Source: Bacteroidales bacterium (GTDB taxonomy: Bacteria > Bacteroidota > Bacteroidia > Bacteroidales > 4484-276). Taken from it: a DNA stretch of 39,473 nucleotides. Shown here piece after piece: positions 16,320-22,483 of this stretch (position 1 is its first letter; each line of letters begins with the position of its first letter). Under the pieces are notes generated by a model that did no database searches, was not told the DNA's origin, and saw only the letters and a list, made by a program, of their open reading frames with translations. A program made the translations under genes and the position numbers. The stretch lies in NCBI GenBank assembly GCA_014860585.1, contig JACZJL010000045.1, forward strand, positions 1-39,473, in the 5' to 3' direction.

Positions 16320-16715
16320 TTAAGTCCAATCTTCAATAATGATTTCGGATAAACGTTCAAAATCGCTTACGTTTTTTGTTACTAAAATGAAATTGTTGAA
16401 AATGGCTGTTGCTCCGATCAGTAAATCAAAGTCGTCCAAAATCTTCCCTTTTGTTTTCAGTCTGGCTTTTTCTTTTGCATAAATTTCAAGTGCAGGAAAA
16501 ATCGGGAGTATGCCAAATTTTGTTTGAAACGTTTCAAGGATTTTCCTGTTCTTTTCTTTGTAAGTGCTCTTTTCTACTCCATATTTCAGTTCGGCAATCG
16601 TTATTTCAGAGACAAGACAATTCTCAATTCCAGCTTCATTAATTTTTTCGTCAAGATTGTATTTCCCATTGAGAAAATAAGCACAAATATTGGTGTCTAA
16701 AAGATACTTTTTCAC
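16320..16715 (-). CDS. vapC: PIN-domain toxin, VapC type
   Basis: A 131-residue PIN-domain protein, typical VapC length. The acidic residues expected for Mg-dependent RNA cleavage are visible: Asp7 in YLLDTNI, Glu in EITIAELKYG (about 42), and Asp residues in DDFDLLIGATA (about 98-101), plus the terminal Asp in NVSDFERL. VapC toxins cut tRNA or rRNA to arrest translation and are held inactive by the partner antitoxin. Its ATG overlaps the antitoxin stop by four bases (16712-16715), the standard coupling. The best-known relatives are chromosomal VapC4-like toxins in Bacteroidetes and cyanobacteria. RNA target unknown. Confidence 0.88.
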   Translation of the reverse strand: MKKYLLDTNICAYFLNGKYNLDEKINEAGIENCLVSEITIAELKYGVEKSTYKEKNRKILETFQTKFGILPIFPALEIYAKEKARLKTKGKILDDFDLLIGATAIFNNFILVTKNVSDFERLSEIIIEDWT

Positions 16716-16957
16716 AAGCGAACTGATTTACGGTTGAAATTTCTATCTTTTTTCAGTCCTTCAATAAATTCTTCTACAGGCTGGTCAAGGACTAAAGCAC
16801 CAAACAATGACTTCCAGGAGTTATCTTTTGTCTTTTTCGTGGTTGTCATTGAATTTGAAAGTCGGGCGATAAGCTCCAACTTATCGTCATGGCTCAGGTT
16901 TTTCAGTAACACATAGTAGCTGTCAACCAAGTTTGTATTTACATCTAAAGTATTCAT
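16712..16957 (-). CDS. Antitoxin partner of VapC
   Basis: An 81-residue protein placed directly before vapC with a four-base overlap. The N-terminal half is helical (SYYVLLKNLSHDDKLELIARLSNSM), resembling small antitoxins of the DUF2281/Phd-like kind seen with PIN toxins. The C-terminal half, with SWKSLFGAL and EFIEGLKKDRNFNRK, would be the toxin-wrapping tail. I do not see a clear AbrB or ribbon-helix-helix fold, so the symbol is left blank. It would repress its own promoter and neutralise VapC. Confidence 0.75.
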   Translation of the reverse strand: MNTLDVNTNLVDSYYVLLKNLSHDDKLELIARLSNSMTTTKKTKDNSWKSLFGALVLDQPVEEFIEGLKKDRNFNRKSVRL

Positions 16958-17123: not shown

Positions 17124-18773
17124 TTATTTCCCGGGACAAACTTTCACCACACTCTCTTTGATGTTTTTGTGGCCGTAGTTTTTATCGAAAGCGTCGCTGA
17201 ATTTTTTGGCAAGCATTTTTGCCTGTTTGTCGTAAGCCTCTTTGTCTTTCCAGGTGTTTTTTGGCCAAAGCATTTCATCAGGAACGCCCGGGCAGCTTTT
17301 TGGTACATCCAAATGGAAAATTTTATCCCTTTCGAATTCAACTTTTTCCAATTCTCCTGAAAGTGCCGCATTCACCATTTTGCGCGTCAATGTCAGGTCA
17401 ATACGACTGCCGGTTCCATAGGCGCCGCCACTCCAGCCGGTGTTGATCAGATAAACCTTGGTATTGAATTTCTTCATTTTCTCACCAAGCATCCCTGCAT
17501 ACACATCAGGATTTCCGGGCATAAACGGTTGTCCGAAAAATCGCGAGAAAGTAGCCTGAGGCTCTGTAACGCCAGTTTCCGTACCAGCCAGTTTACTGGT
17601 GTAGCCCATCAGGAACCAGAGCATAGCTTCATCTTCATTGAGTCTCGAAACGGGAGGTAACACGCCATAGGCGTCTGCTGTGAGGAAAAGGATGGTGGTC
17701 GGGTGACCGGAAACTGAGGATTCCTTGATGTTTTTCAGGTAGCTCAGCAGGTATGATGCTCTTGAATTGGGGGTATAACGCGAGTCGTAAAAATCGAAAC
17801 GACCATCGGGATAGATCATTGCATTTTCCACAATTGAGCCATGGTTCAGATAATTGTCCTTGTGCATCACAGCGTCGTAAATATCAGGCTCTTTGTTTGG
17901 GTTGATATCAATCATTTTTGCATAGCATCCAAATTCAAAGTTGGCGATACCATGATCGCTCCATCCATGCTCGTCGTCGCCAAGCAAAGCGCGCGACGGA
18001 TCGGCAGAAAGGGTGGTTTTTCCTGTTCCCGAAAGGCCTAACAACAGCGCTGAGTCCCCATTCGGACCTTCGTTTGCAGAGCAGTGAAGCGGCAAAATTC
18101 CTTCAAAAGGCAGCAGGTAATTCATTACGGTGAAAATCATCTTTTTCATGCTTCCCATGTAGGCCGAGCCGATTACAATCCCTACGCGGCGATCGAAGTC
18201 GATGGCTACCGCCATATTTGAGGTTTTTCCGTTCTCAAGCGTTCTGAGTCTTCCTTTGTACCTGTCCGGATCAAGCTTCCTGTAAGGGATGCAGATGAGT
18301 TCAAACCCGTTATCGCAAAAAATACTTTTGCTAATGTCTGCAGGGATCGGGCGGAACATATTATCAACAAAGAGGGCATGCAAAGCGCGGGTAGTGACCA
18401 CTTTAACGGGTAGAGCATACCTGCTGTCGGCGCCGGCCACGCGGTCGATAACATAAGTTTCCGGATGCCCCTTCAAAAAATTTAACGCATCCTCAAAAAG
18501 CATATCGAACGTTTCCTCGTCGATGGGTATGTTATTTGGAGAGGTCCAATCGATGGTATTTTCGCTTGACTTACGTCGAACCGACACTGTGTCTTTGGGC
18601 GAACGGCCTGTGGATTCTTCCGGGGTCCACATCGCCAGTGCCCCTGAATGTGAAACGATTGCCTCGCGGTTTTCAACAGCCATCCTGATCATCTCACTGC
18701 GCGCTATGTTTCTGAAAACATTACCGTGAGCCTCAACCGTTGCGTGGAGTTTTTCCTTCAAATTGTTGTTCAT
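17124..18773 (-). CDS. pckA: Phosphoenolpyruvate carboxykinase (ATP)
   Basis: A 549-residue ATP-dependent PEP carboxykinase, close to the usual 530-540. It interconverts oxaloacetate plus ATP with PEP, CO2 and ADP. In Bacteroidetes it often runs toward CO2 fixation on the way to succinate. Visible sites: the kinase-1a loop GLSGTGKTTLS (about 246-256), the metal and catalytic region LLGDDEHGWSDHGIANFEFGCYAK, HCSANEGPNGD just before the loop, and RYTPNSRASYLL further on. Upstream spacing to secA holds a palindromic element, and downstream its apparent terminator is damaged by the vapBC patch. A candidate -7 box (GACATTTG on the minus strand, 18849-18856) has one mismatch. Confidence 0.95.
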   Translation of the reverse strand: MNNNLKEKLHATVEAHGNVFRNIARSEMIRMAVENREAIVSHSGALAMWTPEESTGRSPKDTVSVRRKSSENTIDWTSPNNIPIDEETFDMLFEDALNFLKGHPETYVIDRVAGADSRYALPVKVVTTRALHALFVDNMFRPIPADISKSIFCDNGFELICIPYRKLDPDRYKGRLRTLENGKTSNMAVAIDFDRRVGIVIGSAYMGSMKKMIFTVMNYLLPFEGILPLHCSANEGPNGDSALLLGLSGTGKTTLSADPSRALLGDDEHGWSDHGIANFEFGCYAKMIDINPNKEPDIYDAVMHKDNYLNHGSIVENAMIYPDGRFDFYDSRYTPNSRASYLLSYLKNIKESSVSGHPTTILFLTADAYGVLPPVSRLNEDEAMLWFLMGYTSKLAGTETGVTEPQATFSRFFGQPFMPGNPDVYAGMLGEKMKKFNTKVYLINTGWSGGAYGTGSRIDLTLTRKMVNAALSGELEKVEFERDKIFHLDVPKSCPGVPDEMLWPKNTWKDKEAYDKQAKMLAKKFSDAFDKNYGHKNIKESVVKVCPGK

Positions 18774-18954
18774 GTTCTTTACAAGTTTGAAAAATGAATA
18801 TAAATTATTGAAATTATTTAATGTGTTTTCTACTTAGTAATGGGGTTGCAAATGTCCTATTTTTCGTTCATCTGTATTTAGAAATCACAAAAAAAAGAGC
18901 AAACAGACAAAAGGAAAAAGAGTTCATAAAGTACTTGAGGTTCTTTAAGTAGTG

Positions 18955-19091
18955 CCAGCAAGAAAACTCTAAATGTTGAAAATCAATGAGTGCCCCAACC
19001 CTAAAGGGAGCATTGATTTTCAACGATTTACTCCCTTTAGGGTGGGGTAGATAAATCGTTGAAAATCAAATTTGATGAGTTTTCTTGCTGG
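18955..19091. repeat. 137-bp nested palindromic element (MITE-like) between pckA and secA
   Basis: Perfect 15-base terminal inverted repeats: CCAGCAAGAAAACTC (18955-18969) and its complement at 19077-19091. Inside are two further perfect pairings that share the central segment: 18975-18988 with 19011-19024 (14 bases) and 19013-19030 with 19052-19069 (18 bases). A third near-perfect pairing joins 18993-19010 with 19031-19047 (blocks containing CCCTAAAGGG/CCCTTTAGGG, each itself palindromic). The hairpins exclude one another. No ORF and no transposase is present. It fills much of the 407-base pckA-secA gap (18774-19180); the rest of that gap shows nothing else clear. Confidence 0.8.
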
Positions 19092-19180
19092 TAATGAGTA
19101 CATTAAAAGTATAAAGAACTTTGTTTTAAAAATGATCACAACGTGGGTTATCTTCTATCTTGAATGATAAAAATTTGATT

Positions 19181-22100
19181 TTACTCCTCGCCTTTACCGT
19201 GGCAATGCTTGTATTTTTTACCGCTGCCGCAGGGGCACTGTTCATTGCGTCCGACTTTTTTCTCCACCTTAACAGGCTGAGGTTTTTGCCTTTGCTGTGT
19301 TTGACTGTTCGCCTGCGACAGAAGATCGTCACGGCTTTCCTGGAGTCTGCGTCTGTCGGCACGATGAGCAATGTGTGCTTCACGAACAGTACCCGGGTCC
19401 TGAGTTGGCAAGTCGCCTTTGATGAGGAAAGAGGTGATCTCGCGGTTGATTTTTTGTATCATCCGTTTGAACAACTGGAAAGATTCAAATTTGTAAATCA
19501 AAAGCGGGTCTTTTTGCTCGTAAGTAGCCGCCTGCACTGATTGTTTCAGTTCGTCCATTTCGCGCAGGTGTTCTTTCCAGGCCTCGTCAATCATGCCAAG
19601 CGTCACGCTTTTCTCAAAGGCAAGATTGATTTCCCGCCCACCATTTTCGTAGGCTTTCTTCAGGTTAACAATGATCTGGCGGGTTTTCAGCCCGTCGGTG
19701 ATGGGGATGGCAATATTTTCGTAGGTAGTATTGTTTTCATAAACATCTTTGATCACCGGTGCAGCTTTCTCACCTATAGCTTTCATTTTCAGTTTGTACG
19801 ACTGATACACCTTTTCGTATAGCTTCTCAGTCATCTCATCTTTTGATCCCTGCAGGAACTCTTTCTCGTTCATAGGCGCTGAGATGGCCATGTCTTTAAG
19901 CACTTCCAGCCGGAAACCCTCAAAGTCGCCTGTTTCCTGATAATCTGAAACAATCTGATCGCACAGGTCGTACATCATGTTCGAGATGTCCACCTCCAAA
20001 CGTTCACCAAAGAGGGCGTTGCGGCGGCGACGATAGATGACTTCACGCTGCTGGTTCATCACATCGTCATACTCGAGCAACCGTTTCCGAATGCCAAAGT
20101 TGTTCTCTTCAACTTTTTTCTGCGCCCGTTCGATGGATTTGGTAATCATCGAGTGCTGAATTTCTTCCCCATCTTTGATCCCCATCCTGTCCATGATTTT
20201 GGATATTCGCTCTGATCCAAACATGCGCATGAGGTCATCTTCAAGCGAAACGAAGAATTGTGAACTGCCGGGGTCGCCCTGTCGTCCTGAACGACCGCGC
20301 AACTGCCGGTCAACACGCCTCGACTCATGCCTTTCCGTACCAATAATGGCAAGCCCTCCTGCATCTTTAACTCCCTGTCCCAGCTTGATATCTGTTCCAC
20401 GACCAGCCATGTTGGTGGCAATGGTCACCCTGCCCGGCTTACCGGCTTCTGCTACAATGTCTGCTTCTTTCTGATGAAGTTTGGCATTGAGTACATTGTG
20501 AGGAATGTGCTGACGGGTTAACATCCTGCTTAGCAATTCTGACGTTTCCACCGAGGTAGTACCTACAAGAACAGGACGTTTCTTTTCAACTAATTTTTCA
20601 ATATCGGTAATTACTGCATTAAACTTCTCCCGCTTGGTCTTGTAAACCAGGTCTTCGCGGTCATCGCGGACAATTGGCCTATTTGTTGGGATTACCACCA
20701 CATCCAGCTTATAGATATCCCAAAGTTCGCCTGCTTCCGTTTCAGCAGTTCCGGTCATACCGGCGAGCTTTTTGTACATTCTGAAATAGTTCTGAAGCGT
20801 GATCGTCGCGTAAGTCTGGGTAGCAGCTTCGATCTTAACATTTTCTTTGGCTTCGATGGCCTGATGCAGTCCATCGGAATAGCGCCTTCCTTCGAGGATA
20901 CGACCGGTTTGCTCATCAACAATTTTCACTTTGTTGTCCATCACCACGTATTCAACATCCTTTTCAAACATCGAATACGCTCTTAACAACTGGTTTACAG
21001 TGTGTATCCTTTCTGACTTCACGGAGAATTCGCGGATCAAATCATTGCGTTTCTCCAGTTTTTTATCTTCCGGCAGGTTGGTTTTATCAAGGTCTGCCAG
21101 TTCAGCGCCTAAGTCAGGAATGATGAAAAAGGAGGGGTCGTTATAAGAAGAACTTAGCAGATCGTGACCGTTTTCAGTAAGTTCGATGGAGTTACTTTTT
21201 TCATCAATCACAAAATAGAGCGGATCATTAATAATATGCATGTGTTTGTTCTGCTCCTGCATGTAAAAGCTTTCGGTTTTGGTCATCAGCGATTTCATGC
21301 CAGGCTCGCTAAGGAACTTAATCAGCGCTTTGGTTTTGGGTAACCCGTGGTGGGCTCTCAACAGGTATTCGCCTCCTTTTTTCTGGTTGTCGTCGCTCAC
21401 ATTATCCGCCGTAAGAATTTGCTTGGCATCAGCCAGTAATTTTGTAACGAGGTTACGCTGAGCATTGTAAAGCCTGGCTACATTGTCCTTCATTTCTTCG
21501 AACAACTGATTCTCGCCTTTTGCTGTAGGTCCAGATATAATAAGAGGTGTACGGGCATCGTCAATTAATACGGAGTCCACCTCATCCACAATAGCATAGT
21601 TATGGGGGCGTTGCACAAGTTCCGCAGGATTACCTGTCATGTTGTCGCGCAGGTAATCAAAGCCAAATTCGTTATTTGTACCGTAGGTGATGTCGGCTAA
21701 ATACGCTTTTCTCCTTGATTCGGAATTGGGCTCATGCTTGTCAATACAATCCACTTTTAGCCCATGAAACATATAGAGCATACCCATCCATTCCGAGTCA
21801 CGCTTTGCCAGGTAGTCATTGACTGTAACCAGGTGAACCCCTTTGCCGGGTAAAGCATTGAGGTACATAGGGAGGGTAGCGACAAGTGTTTTTCCTTCAC
21901 CGGTGGCCATTTCAGCGATCTTACCCTGATGTAGTACAACGCCACCAATCAACTGGACATCGTAATGCACCATATCCCAGGTAATCAGATTACCTCCGGC
22001 CATCCATTGGTTCTTATAATGTGCTTTATCACCTACAATATTAACATGGTCATAGCGCGCTGCCAGGTCCCGGTCAAACTGTGTGGCTGTAACAACAACT

Positions 22101-22483
22101 TCATCATTCTCCTTGAACCTTTTAGCGGTTTCTTTGATGACGGAAAAAGCTTCAGGAAGAATCTGGTTGAGAATGTCCTGGGTTTTTTCATAAGAGGTCT
22201 TTTCTAACCTGTCAATCTCATTATAAAGTTTCTCCTTCTCATCCATTGGCAGATCAATCTCAGCCTCTATGCGTTTTCTTATTTCGACAATTTTATTTTC
22301 TTCATCGGCAATGTGGGTAGCAATTTGTTGTCTGAAACTAAAGGTTTTCGCACGTAACTCATCGTTTGAGAGGGTTTTGATGGTTTCGTAGGCGGTAAGG
22401 ATTTCATTCAATAAAGGATCAATCTCCTTCATGTCTTTATCGGCTTTCGTTCCGAAAAGTTGCTTTATTATTTTACCTAGCAT
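19181..22483 (-). CDS. secA: Preprotein translocase ATPase SecA
   Basis: A 1,100-residue SecA, the motor that pushes preproteins through SecYEG. Walker A is [15 protein letters not shown] (about 191-205), the DEAD-type Walker B is [19 protein letters not shown] (about 300-318), and the second RecA-like domain has [15 protein letters not shown] and [15 protein letters not shown]. The C-terminus carries the zinc-binding SecB/ribosome-contact tail with [14 protein letters not shown]. It is about 200 residues longer than E. coli SecA, mainly from charged inserts near the N-terminus (about 50-100) and after the DEAD box (about 320-480), a pattern I associate with Bacteroidetes SecA. Preceded by a leader of about 100 bases with a hairpin and followed by the palindromic element. 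Confidence 0.96.

Follow-up and report, generated by a model that had tools for sequence, protein, structure and literature searches.

Which kind of element forms the nested palindrome between secA and pckA, and how did it come to lie there? The palindrome is part of the window, the whole 39,473-nt stretch of DNA from a Bacteroidales bacterium that was analysed, and the first-pass annotation of this stretch had named a miniature inverted-repeat element, a REP-like unit and an RNA switch as possible identities. We propose, with a probability of about 0.87, that it is a miniature inverted-repeat transposable element (MITE) mobilised in trans by an ISNCY-type transposase and carrying a double-hairpin cassette, X-Y-X′-Y′-X. 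The MITE is of a known kind; the recurrent cassette is the unusual and new part. The MITE part of the first interpretation is supported, and its REP-like, RNA-switch and third-fold parts are not.

Architecture, copies and borders of the element

The host of the window copy is a 407-nt gap between the PEP carboxykinase gene pckA (17124–18773, minus strand; Pfam PF01293) and secA (19181–22483, minus strand; PF07517 and other SecA domains), and the element sits roughly 170 nt upstream of pckA and roughly 80 nt downstream of secA. It had been delimited at 18955–19091. An element is indeed present there; its real limits are slightly wider, 18952–19094 (143 bp), and are flanked by a 6-bp target-site duplication, TAAGTA on the left (18946–18951) and TGAGTA on the right (19095–19100), which has no strand, is identical at five of six positions and was assigned from direct-repeat statistics over 39 copies with the family consensus TAATTA. 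The left terminal inverted repeat, GT-GCCA-GCAAGAAAAC (18952–18967, plus strand), was recognized from end-pattern counts and pairing, and the right one (19079–19094, minus strand) has one mismatch to the end pattern. The four nucleotides at 18954–18957 in the left end vary among copies and are mostly mirrored at the right end.

All of the pairings in the first-pass annotation were recovered as described. The outer arms (18955–18969 and 19077–19091) match at 15/15 positions. In the left hairpin, stem A, the 5′ arm (18975–18988), which includes X1 = GTTGAAAATCA, pairs at 14/14 positions with the 3′ arm (19011–19024), of which 19013–19024 is the shared arm X′, an inverted copy of X. In the right hairpin, stem B, the 5′ arm (19013–19030) pairs at 18/18 positions with the 3′ arm (19052–19069), which includes X2 = GTTGAAAATCA, a direct repeat of X1; all four arms are given on the plus strand. 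The hairpins had been called mutually exclusive, and this is literally correct because 19013–19024 is part of both. The CCC...GGG blocks are 17 nt long and match at 94%; they correspond to the loop module Y (CCCAACCCTAAAGGGAG; 18994–19010, plus strand), for which other hairpin modules are swapped in elsewhere among copies, and to a second, inverted Y (19031–19047, minus strand). The fold is non-random, with z values of −10.4 as RNA and −10.7 as DNA, and none of 200 shuffles equalled it in either case. Around the element lies a further inverted repeat, GTTCTTT (18940–18946) and AAAGAAC (19113–19119), so the insertion may have occurred into an older hairpin. Elsewhere in the window, a PIN-domain protein (PF01850) is encoded at 16320–16957 on the minus strand together with a small overlapping upstream frame lacking a Pfam match, an arrangement that we take to resemble a VapBC-type toxin–antitoxin pair.

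The genome of origin (G000; 4.73 Mb in 194 contigs) was searched by similarity to the window copy, which is how all scored copies were found. Among 148 first-look candidates 40 copies were scored, the others being 74–91% identical to the window copy, and alignment A1 holds 39 of the 40, with one copy cut by a contig end (L029) excluded. Related genomes also carry matches. The single copy with unconserved pairing arms that the first-pass annotation had set against its own reading is not what was seen. Terminal inverted repeats are present and the end reads GT-NNNN-GC[AC]AGAAAAC. When up to one mismatch is allowed, the end GTNNNNGC[AC]AGAAAAC occurs 225 times in this genome (103 + 122) compared with 40 times (22 + 18) for the reversed control. 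A check for target-site duplications had also been suggested, and direct 6-bp repeats do border the copies in A1. The left and right repeats are identical at 6/6 positions in 15 of the 39 copies, at 5/6 in 14 and at 4/6 or fewer in 10. The two variable middle positions agree in 32 and 33 copies, where 17.9 and 19.8 are expected, and the direct duplication reaches a z value of about 8 against re-dealt right flanks of the 39 copies. Regarding gene context, 29 of the 39 copies have sufficient flank: 17 lie between tandem genes, five between divergent and two between convergent genes, three overlap a mechanically called frame and two have no neighbour on one side. With 26 of 29 outside called frames, the copies are dispersed and mostly intergenic.

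The inverted match of the two ends exceeds expectation solely at the four N positions, and not at the conserved GT or further on. In 53 elements, for which the duplication was one criterion of choice among 80 fetched loci and which are therefore no test of the duplication itself, 164 of 212 N positions agree between the left end and the mirrored right end, compared with 95.3 after shuffling. A comparison of regions within this set is skewed towards the conserved core, since the pairs were selected by core similarity, and departures from the majority letter over the 39 copies provide the unbiased measure. These amount to 1.0% in X1, 3.8% in X′ and 2.6% in X2, to 9–10% in the end cores, to 28% in the spacers and to 43–45% at the N positions. 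We dropped as unnecessary the idea that every insertion rewrites a 4-nt tag at the ends, because the adjacent spacers are likewise very variable. The same measure supplies a point against our model: the X arms (1–4% departures) are more conserved than the ends, and transposition alone needs none of this conservation.

Hairpin pairing and the double-hairpin cassette

To compare the alternative folds, we scored pairing and covariation in A1. The outer stem is paired in 86.9% of cells, with two-sided changes at 11 of 18 pairs and a covariation score of 0.284 against 0.137 for shuffled alignments. The corresponding values are 98.5%, 3 of 14 pairs and 0.098 against 0.022 for hairpin A, and 94.4%, 5 of 18 pairs and 0.073 against 0.039 for hairpin B. 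Each of the three scores was reached by none of 500 shuffles, to be read with the caveat that related rows may beat shuffles even when there is no structure, and that lower values are seen in slid controls anyway when the structure is drawn from an aligned row, as was done here. By a weaker measure, the number of further pair types, hairpins A and B do not exceed shuffles (236 and 404 of 500, respectively). The first-pass annotation had also offered a third fold, CCCTAAAGGG with CCCTTTAGGG, and this Y·Y′ pairing dominates the energy-based RNA fold of the window copy. Its covariation over the 39 copies is 0.032 compared with 0.035 shuffled, a value that 351 of 500 shuffles equalled or exceeded, and we rejected it as a maintained structure. 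Thus, hairpins A and B look maintained and the third fold does not, since covariation is found in A and B and is absent in Y·Y′. The outer stem has 16 G·T and 17 A·C mismatches, A has zero and three, and B has three and four, or 19 and 24 in total; since they are equally frequent, selection on one RNA strand is not suggested. Our preferred explanation is that paired changes are kept, most likely at the DNA level, by palindrome-templated correction in replication and/or by recognition of the hairpin or of the paired ends.

End-to-end lengths in the genome of origin fall mainly into classes of 59–60, 142–144, 162–165 and 184–186 bp, and single copies of 124, 149, 226 and 377 bp are among the other lengths. 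The 60-bp form contains one X (GTTGAAAATCA), and the 143-bp form contains X-Y-X′-Y′-X in that position, where the shared arm X′ can form either of two hairpins. Y consists of CCCNACCC-loop-GGGAG, where the loop is TAAA or one among several hairpin inserts, and these inserts are exchanged independently of each other in the two Ys. When short and long copies of one subfamily are compared over 60 end positions, there are one (L063/L056), two (L084/L030) and three differences (L065/L001); the remaining seven short copies show 3 to 10 differences from the nearest long copy. Short copies therefore match the long copies of their own subfamily, and more than one subfamily shows both states, with the cassette precisely present or absent between direct repeats of X. 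The simplest cause of the 60-bp copies, and the one that best explains them, would be slippage across the hairpin between the direct X repeats, with precise loss of the cassette.

The double-hairpin cassette recurs in at least three MITE shells that differ in their ends, and two of these shells also have copies from which the cassette is precisely missing. In family 2, which has ends GAGGCTGTCTCAAAAG, the loci taken from the genome of origin (L282–L284, L286, L288, L291–L300, L302, L305–L307, L309–L311; 40 of 117 candidates scored) include seven 72-bp copies, each with a single X, and ten copies of 150–197 bp with X-Y-X′-Y′-X, the X sequence being unchanged. Family 3, with ends near TTCTACTTTAACA (40 of 80 candidates scored), has three copies in the genome of origin (L281, L287 and L289) and two in G004 (L278 and L279); here X is different (GAAAAATC), X′ is altered to match, and the double-hairpin architecture is kept. 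Across the phylum, MITEs with ISNCY-type ends (L094–L253) often contain a central stem-loop in which the loop AGTTTAC..GTAAATGACT is constant and the stems vary. In 24 of 45 such stretches the Watson–Crick score is at least 9, compared with a mean of 2.8 and a maximum of 8 for re-dealt right flanks, and the other stretches pair poorly. Since several MITE families share the architecture, it is not a property of one transposon. In our searches of open-access papers we found none that describes this element, nor one on a hairpin cassette that recurs among MITE shells whose ends are unrelated.

Insertion sequences bounded by identical or similar ends

An element of 143 bp is too short to encode a transposase, and we looked for a parent through its ends. 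The element itself is matched in five of the 59 genomes searched, its own included, with partial matches in G004 and G038. A scan of named genomes for TANNTAGTNTCTGCAAGAAAAC gave at least 114 loci; by the titles of 80 among the matches listed, 73 are from Bacteroidota, five from Chlorobiota (one assembly), one from Balneolales and one from Arenicellales. For 65 of 123 end hits, a partner end lies no more than about 620 bp away and the duplication matches at 5/6 positions or better; 56 of these 65 duplications are exact, in a set that was preselected for this duplication, counts some elements twice and includes a few likely chance pairings (for example L154, L201, L221 and L224). TANNTA duplications thus accompany identical ends across Bacteroidota.

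Related reading frames lie beside the end at six loci (L153, L161, L175, L179, L185 and L186), two of which come from one assembly. The three scanned (L153, L179 and L186) all match the ISNCY family transposase model NCBIfam NF033593, at 398.7, 402 and 424.8 bits against a cut-off of 325. Two belong to complete insertion sequences whose left end is exact: L179 is 1832 bp long with TATATA and TATTTA at its borders, and L186 is 1835 bp long with TAAATA and TAATTA, so that each duplication matches at 5/6 positions. Two further insertion sequences from same-order genomes have transposases identified by similarity to the L153 protein. L254 (1849 bp, 71% identity) has ends GTGTCTGAAAGAAAAC and TATATA on both sides, and L255 (1844 bp, 60%) has ends GTGTCTCTAAGAAAAC and GTGCCTCTAAGAAAAC and TATTTA on both sides; their duplications are identical at 6/6 positions, but the ends deviate at one and two core positions, respectively. 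Two more relatives of L153 (L256 and L257) are partial, and such ends were not seen in them. We conclude that insertion sequences of 1.83–1.85 kb with an ISNCY-type transposase and the same or close ends are the likely parent of the MITE. Copy number, terminal repeats, 6-bp duplications and these parent-type insertion sequences together bear out the first-pass proposal of a miniature inverted-repeat element.

The search for an ISNCY transposase in the genome of origin gave no hits, which counts against our model; the parent gene may have been lost, be unassembled or be supplied from elsewhere. G011, which is rich in such ends, contains two ISNCY-like frames of 101 and 115 bits, below the cut-off, and no such ends were found beside either. 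Reading of unpaired ends in G000, G002, G006, G007, G009 and G011, with frames for one locus, revealed no recognisable transposase, and a scan of genome contigs for the X-Y junction pattern gave no matches. A longer element sharing this end is present three times in G007 (L108, L129 and L130); all three copies run off contig ends, and it is probably an unassembled insertion sequence.

Competing explanations and known systems

Our model would be a non-autonomous element whose 16-bp ends are bound by an ISNCY-type DDE transposase acting in trans, with insertion at TANNTA and duplication of 6 bp, as expected from known DDE biology. The position between secA and pckA would then result from insertion, and the element would not be a dedicated regulator of either gene. 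An RNA switch or attenuator in a secA–pckA transcript, working through the alternative hairpins, seems to us highly improbable. The two hairpins are real and both covary, and the element lies upstream of one gene and downstream of the other with both on the minus strand; however, it is dispersed in dozens of unrelated contexts. At the 17 tandem gene pairs its orientation is with the genes in seven and against them in ten, and G·T mismatches are not in excess over A·C. In G001, of the same genus, pckA and secA are neighbours, and the roughly 290 nt that separate them contain no recognisable element; among seven relatives with a pckA hit, this is the one with secA on the same fetched locus. The whole G001 genome gave no element matches, with 14 of 19 candidates scored. 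Apart from the missing element, the two spacers can hardly be aligned, and therefore define no base-exact empty site. An Rfam scan of 18850–19200 gave best matches far below the gathering scores. Orientation, wobble symmetry and the absence in G001 led us to reject the switch. Just as little credence attaches to a REP- or REPIN-type repeat moved through single-stranded DNA hairpins by a REP-associated tyrosine transposase, even though the element is palindromic, high-copy and mostly intergenic and its stems change sequence while the pairing stays. The direct 6-bp duplications are unlike IS200/IS605-type transposition, which to our knowledge yields none, and in other genomes a DDE transposase lies between identical ends. 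The consensus end TAATTAGTGNCNGC is also without the GTAG/CGTC tag; the window copy reads TAAGTAGTG, where a chance GTAG is created by its duplication. Such tags beside REP palindromes are described in PMC3733652.

A different history of the cassette is unlikely, if less so than the two preceding explanations. The MITE shell would be as modelled, and the double hairpin would be an independent unit that entered at X, with X copied first inverted and then direct as the template is switched twice at the Y palindrome. X-Y-X′-Y′-X would then be a selfish, structure-templated unit invading MITEs of unrelated transposases, kept or lost as a whole, with pairing selected over sequence. The identical architecture in three shells of differing ends, the precise cassette-less forms of two of them and the correspondingly differing inner X′ that accompanies the differing X of family 3 would suit such a unit. 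However, we noticed no X-Y-X′ intermediate among the loci that were read, presence and absence can be explained without gain by a precise loss between direct repeats, and the families could possibly exchange through their common X and Y sequence. If the unit did exist, the stem-loop with a constant loop and changing stems would belong to that element class throughout Bacteroidota.

Under our preferred reading, a MITE with an ISNCY-type parent, orphan palindromic repeats of many Bacteroidota genomes are linked to a single end motif and a single type of transposase, and this link opens them to annotation and testing. Paired-base evolution in mobile DNA is commonly taken as a sign of RNA structure, but in this system it may arise at the level of DNA, and dozens of sister copies per genome reveal which stems are kept and which are not.

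Finally, we compared the element with known systems. REP/REPIN–RAYT systems also consist of palindromic intergenic repeats (PMC3733652; PMC2817692), whereas the element here has target duplications and a DDE partner and lacks the tag tetranucleotide (PMC3733652). BrickBuilt of Porphyromonas gingivalis is likewise a multi-copy Bacteroidota MITE, although it has IS5-like ends, duplications of variable length and a minisatellite interior in place of hairpins (PMC4596501). The IS982-derived MITE of a Cardinium endosymbiont is likewise a Bacteroidota MITE that is likely maintained by a parental insertion sequence, but it involves a different transposase family and was found in a single strain (PMC9769881), in contrast to the phylum-wide occurrence of the ends studied here. 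For the IS1202 group, within the ISNCY category, target-site duplications of 3–5, more than 15 or 0 bp are given, and these differ from the 6 bp at this element (PMC10132070). The parent insertion sequence was not matched to any named ISfinder element. With ISNCY-type insertion sequences (NF033593) and IS-derived MITEs, the 16-bp end and the TANNTA duplications are common to parent-type elements; in contrast to IS-derived MITEs, the interior here is built of modular covarying hairpins.
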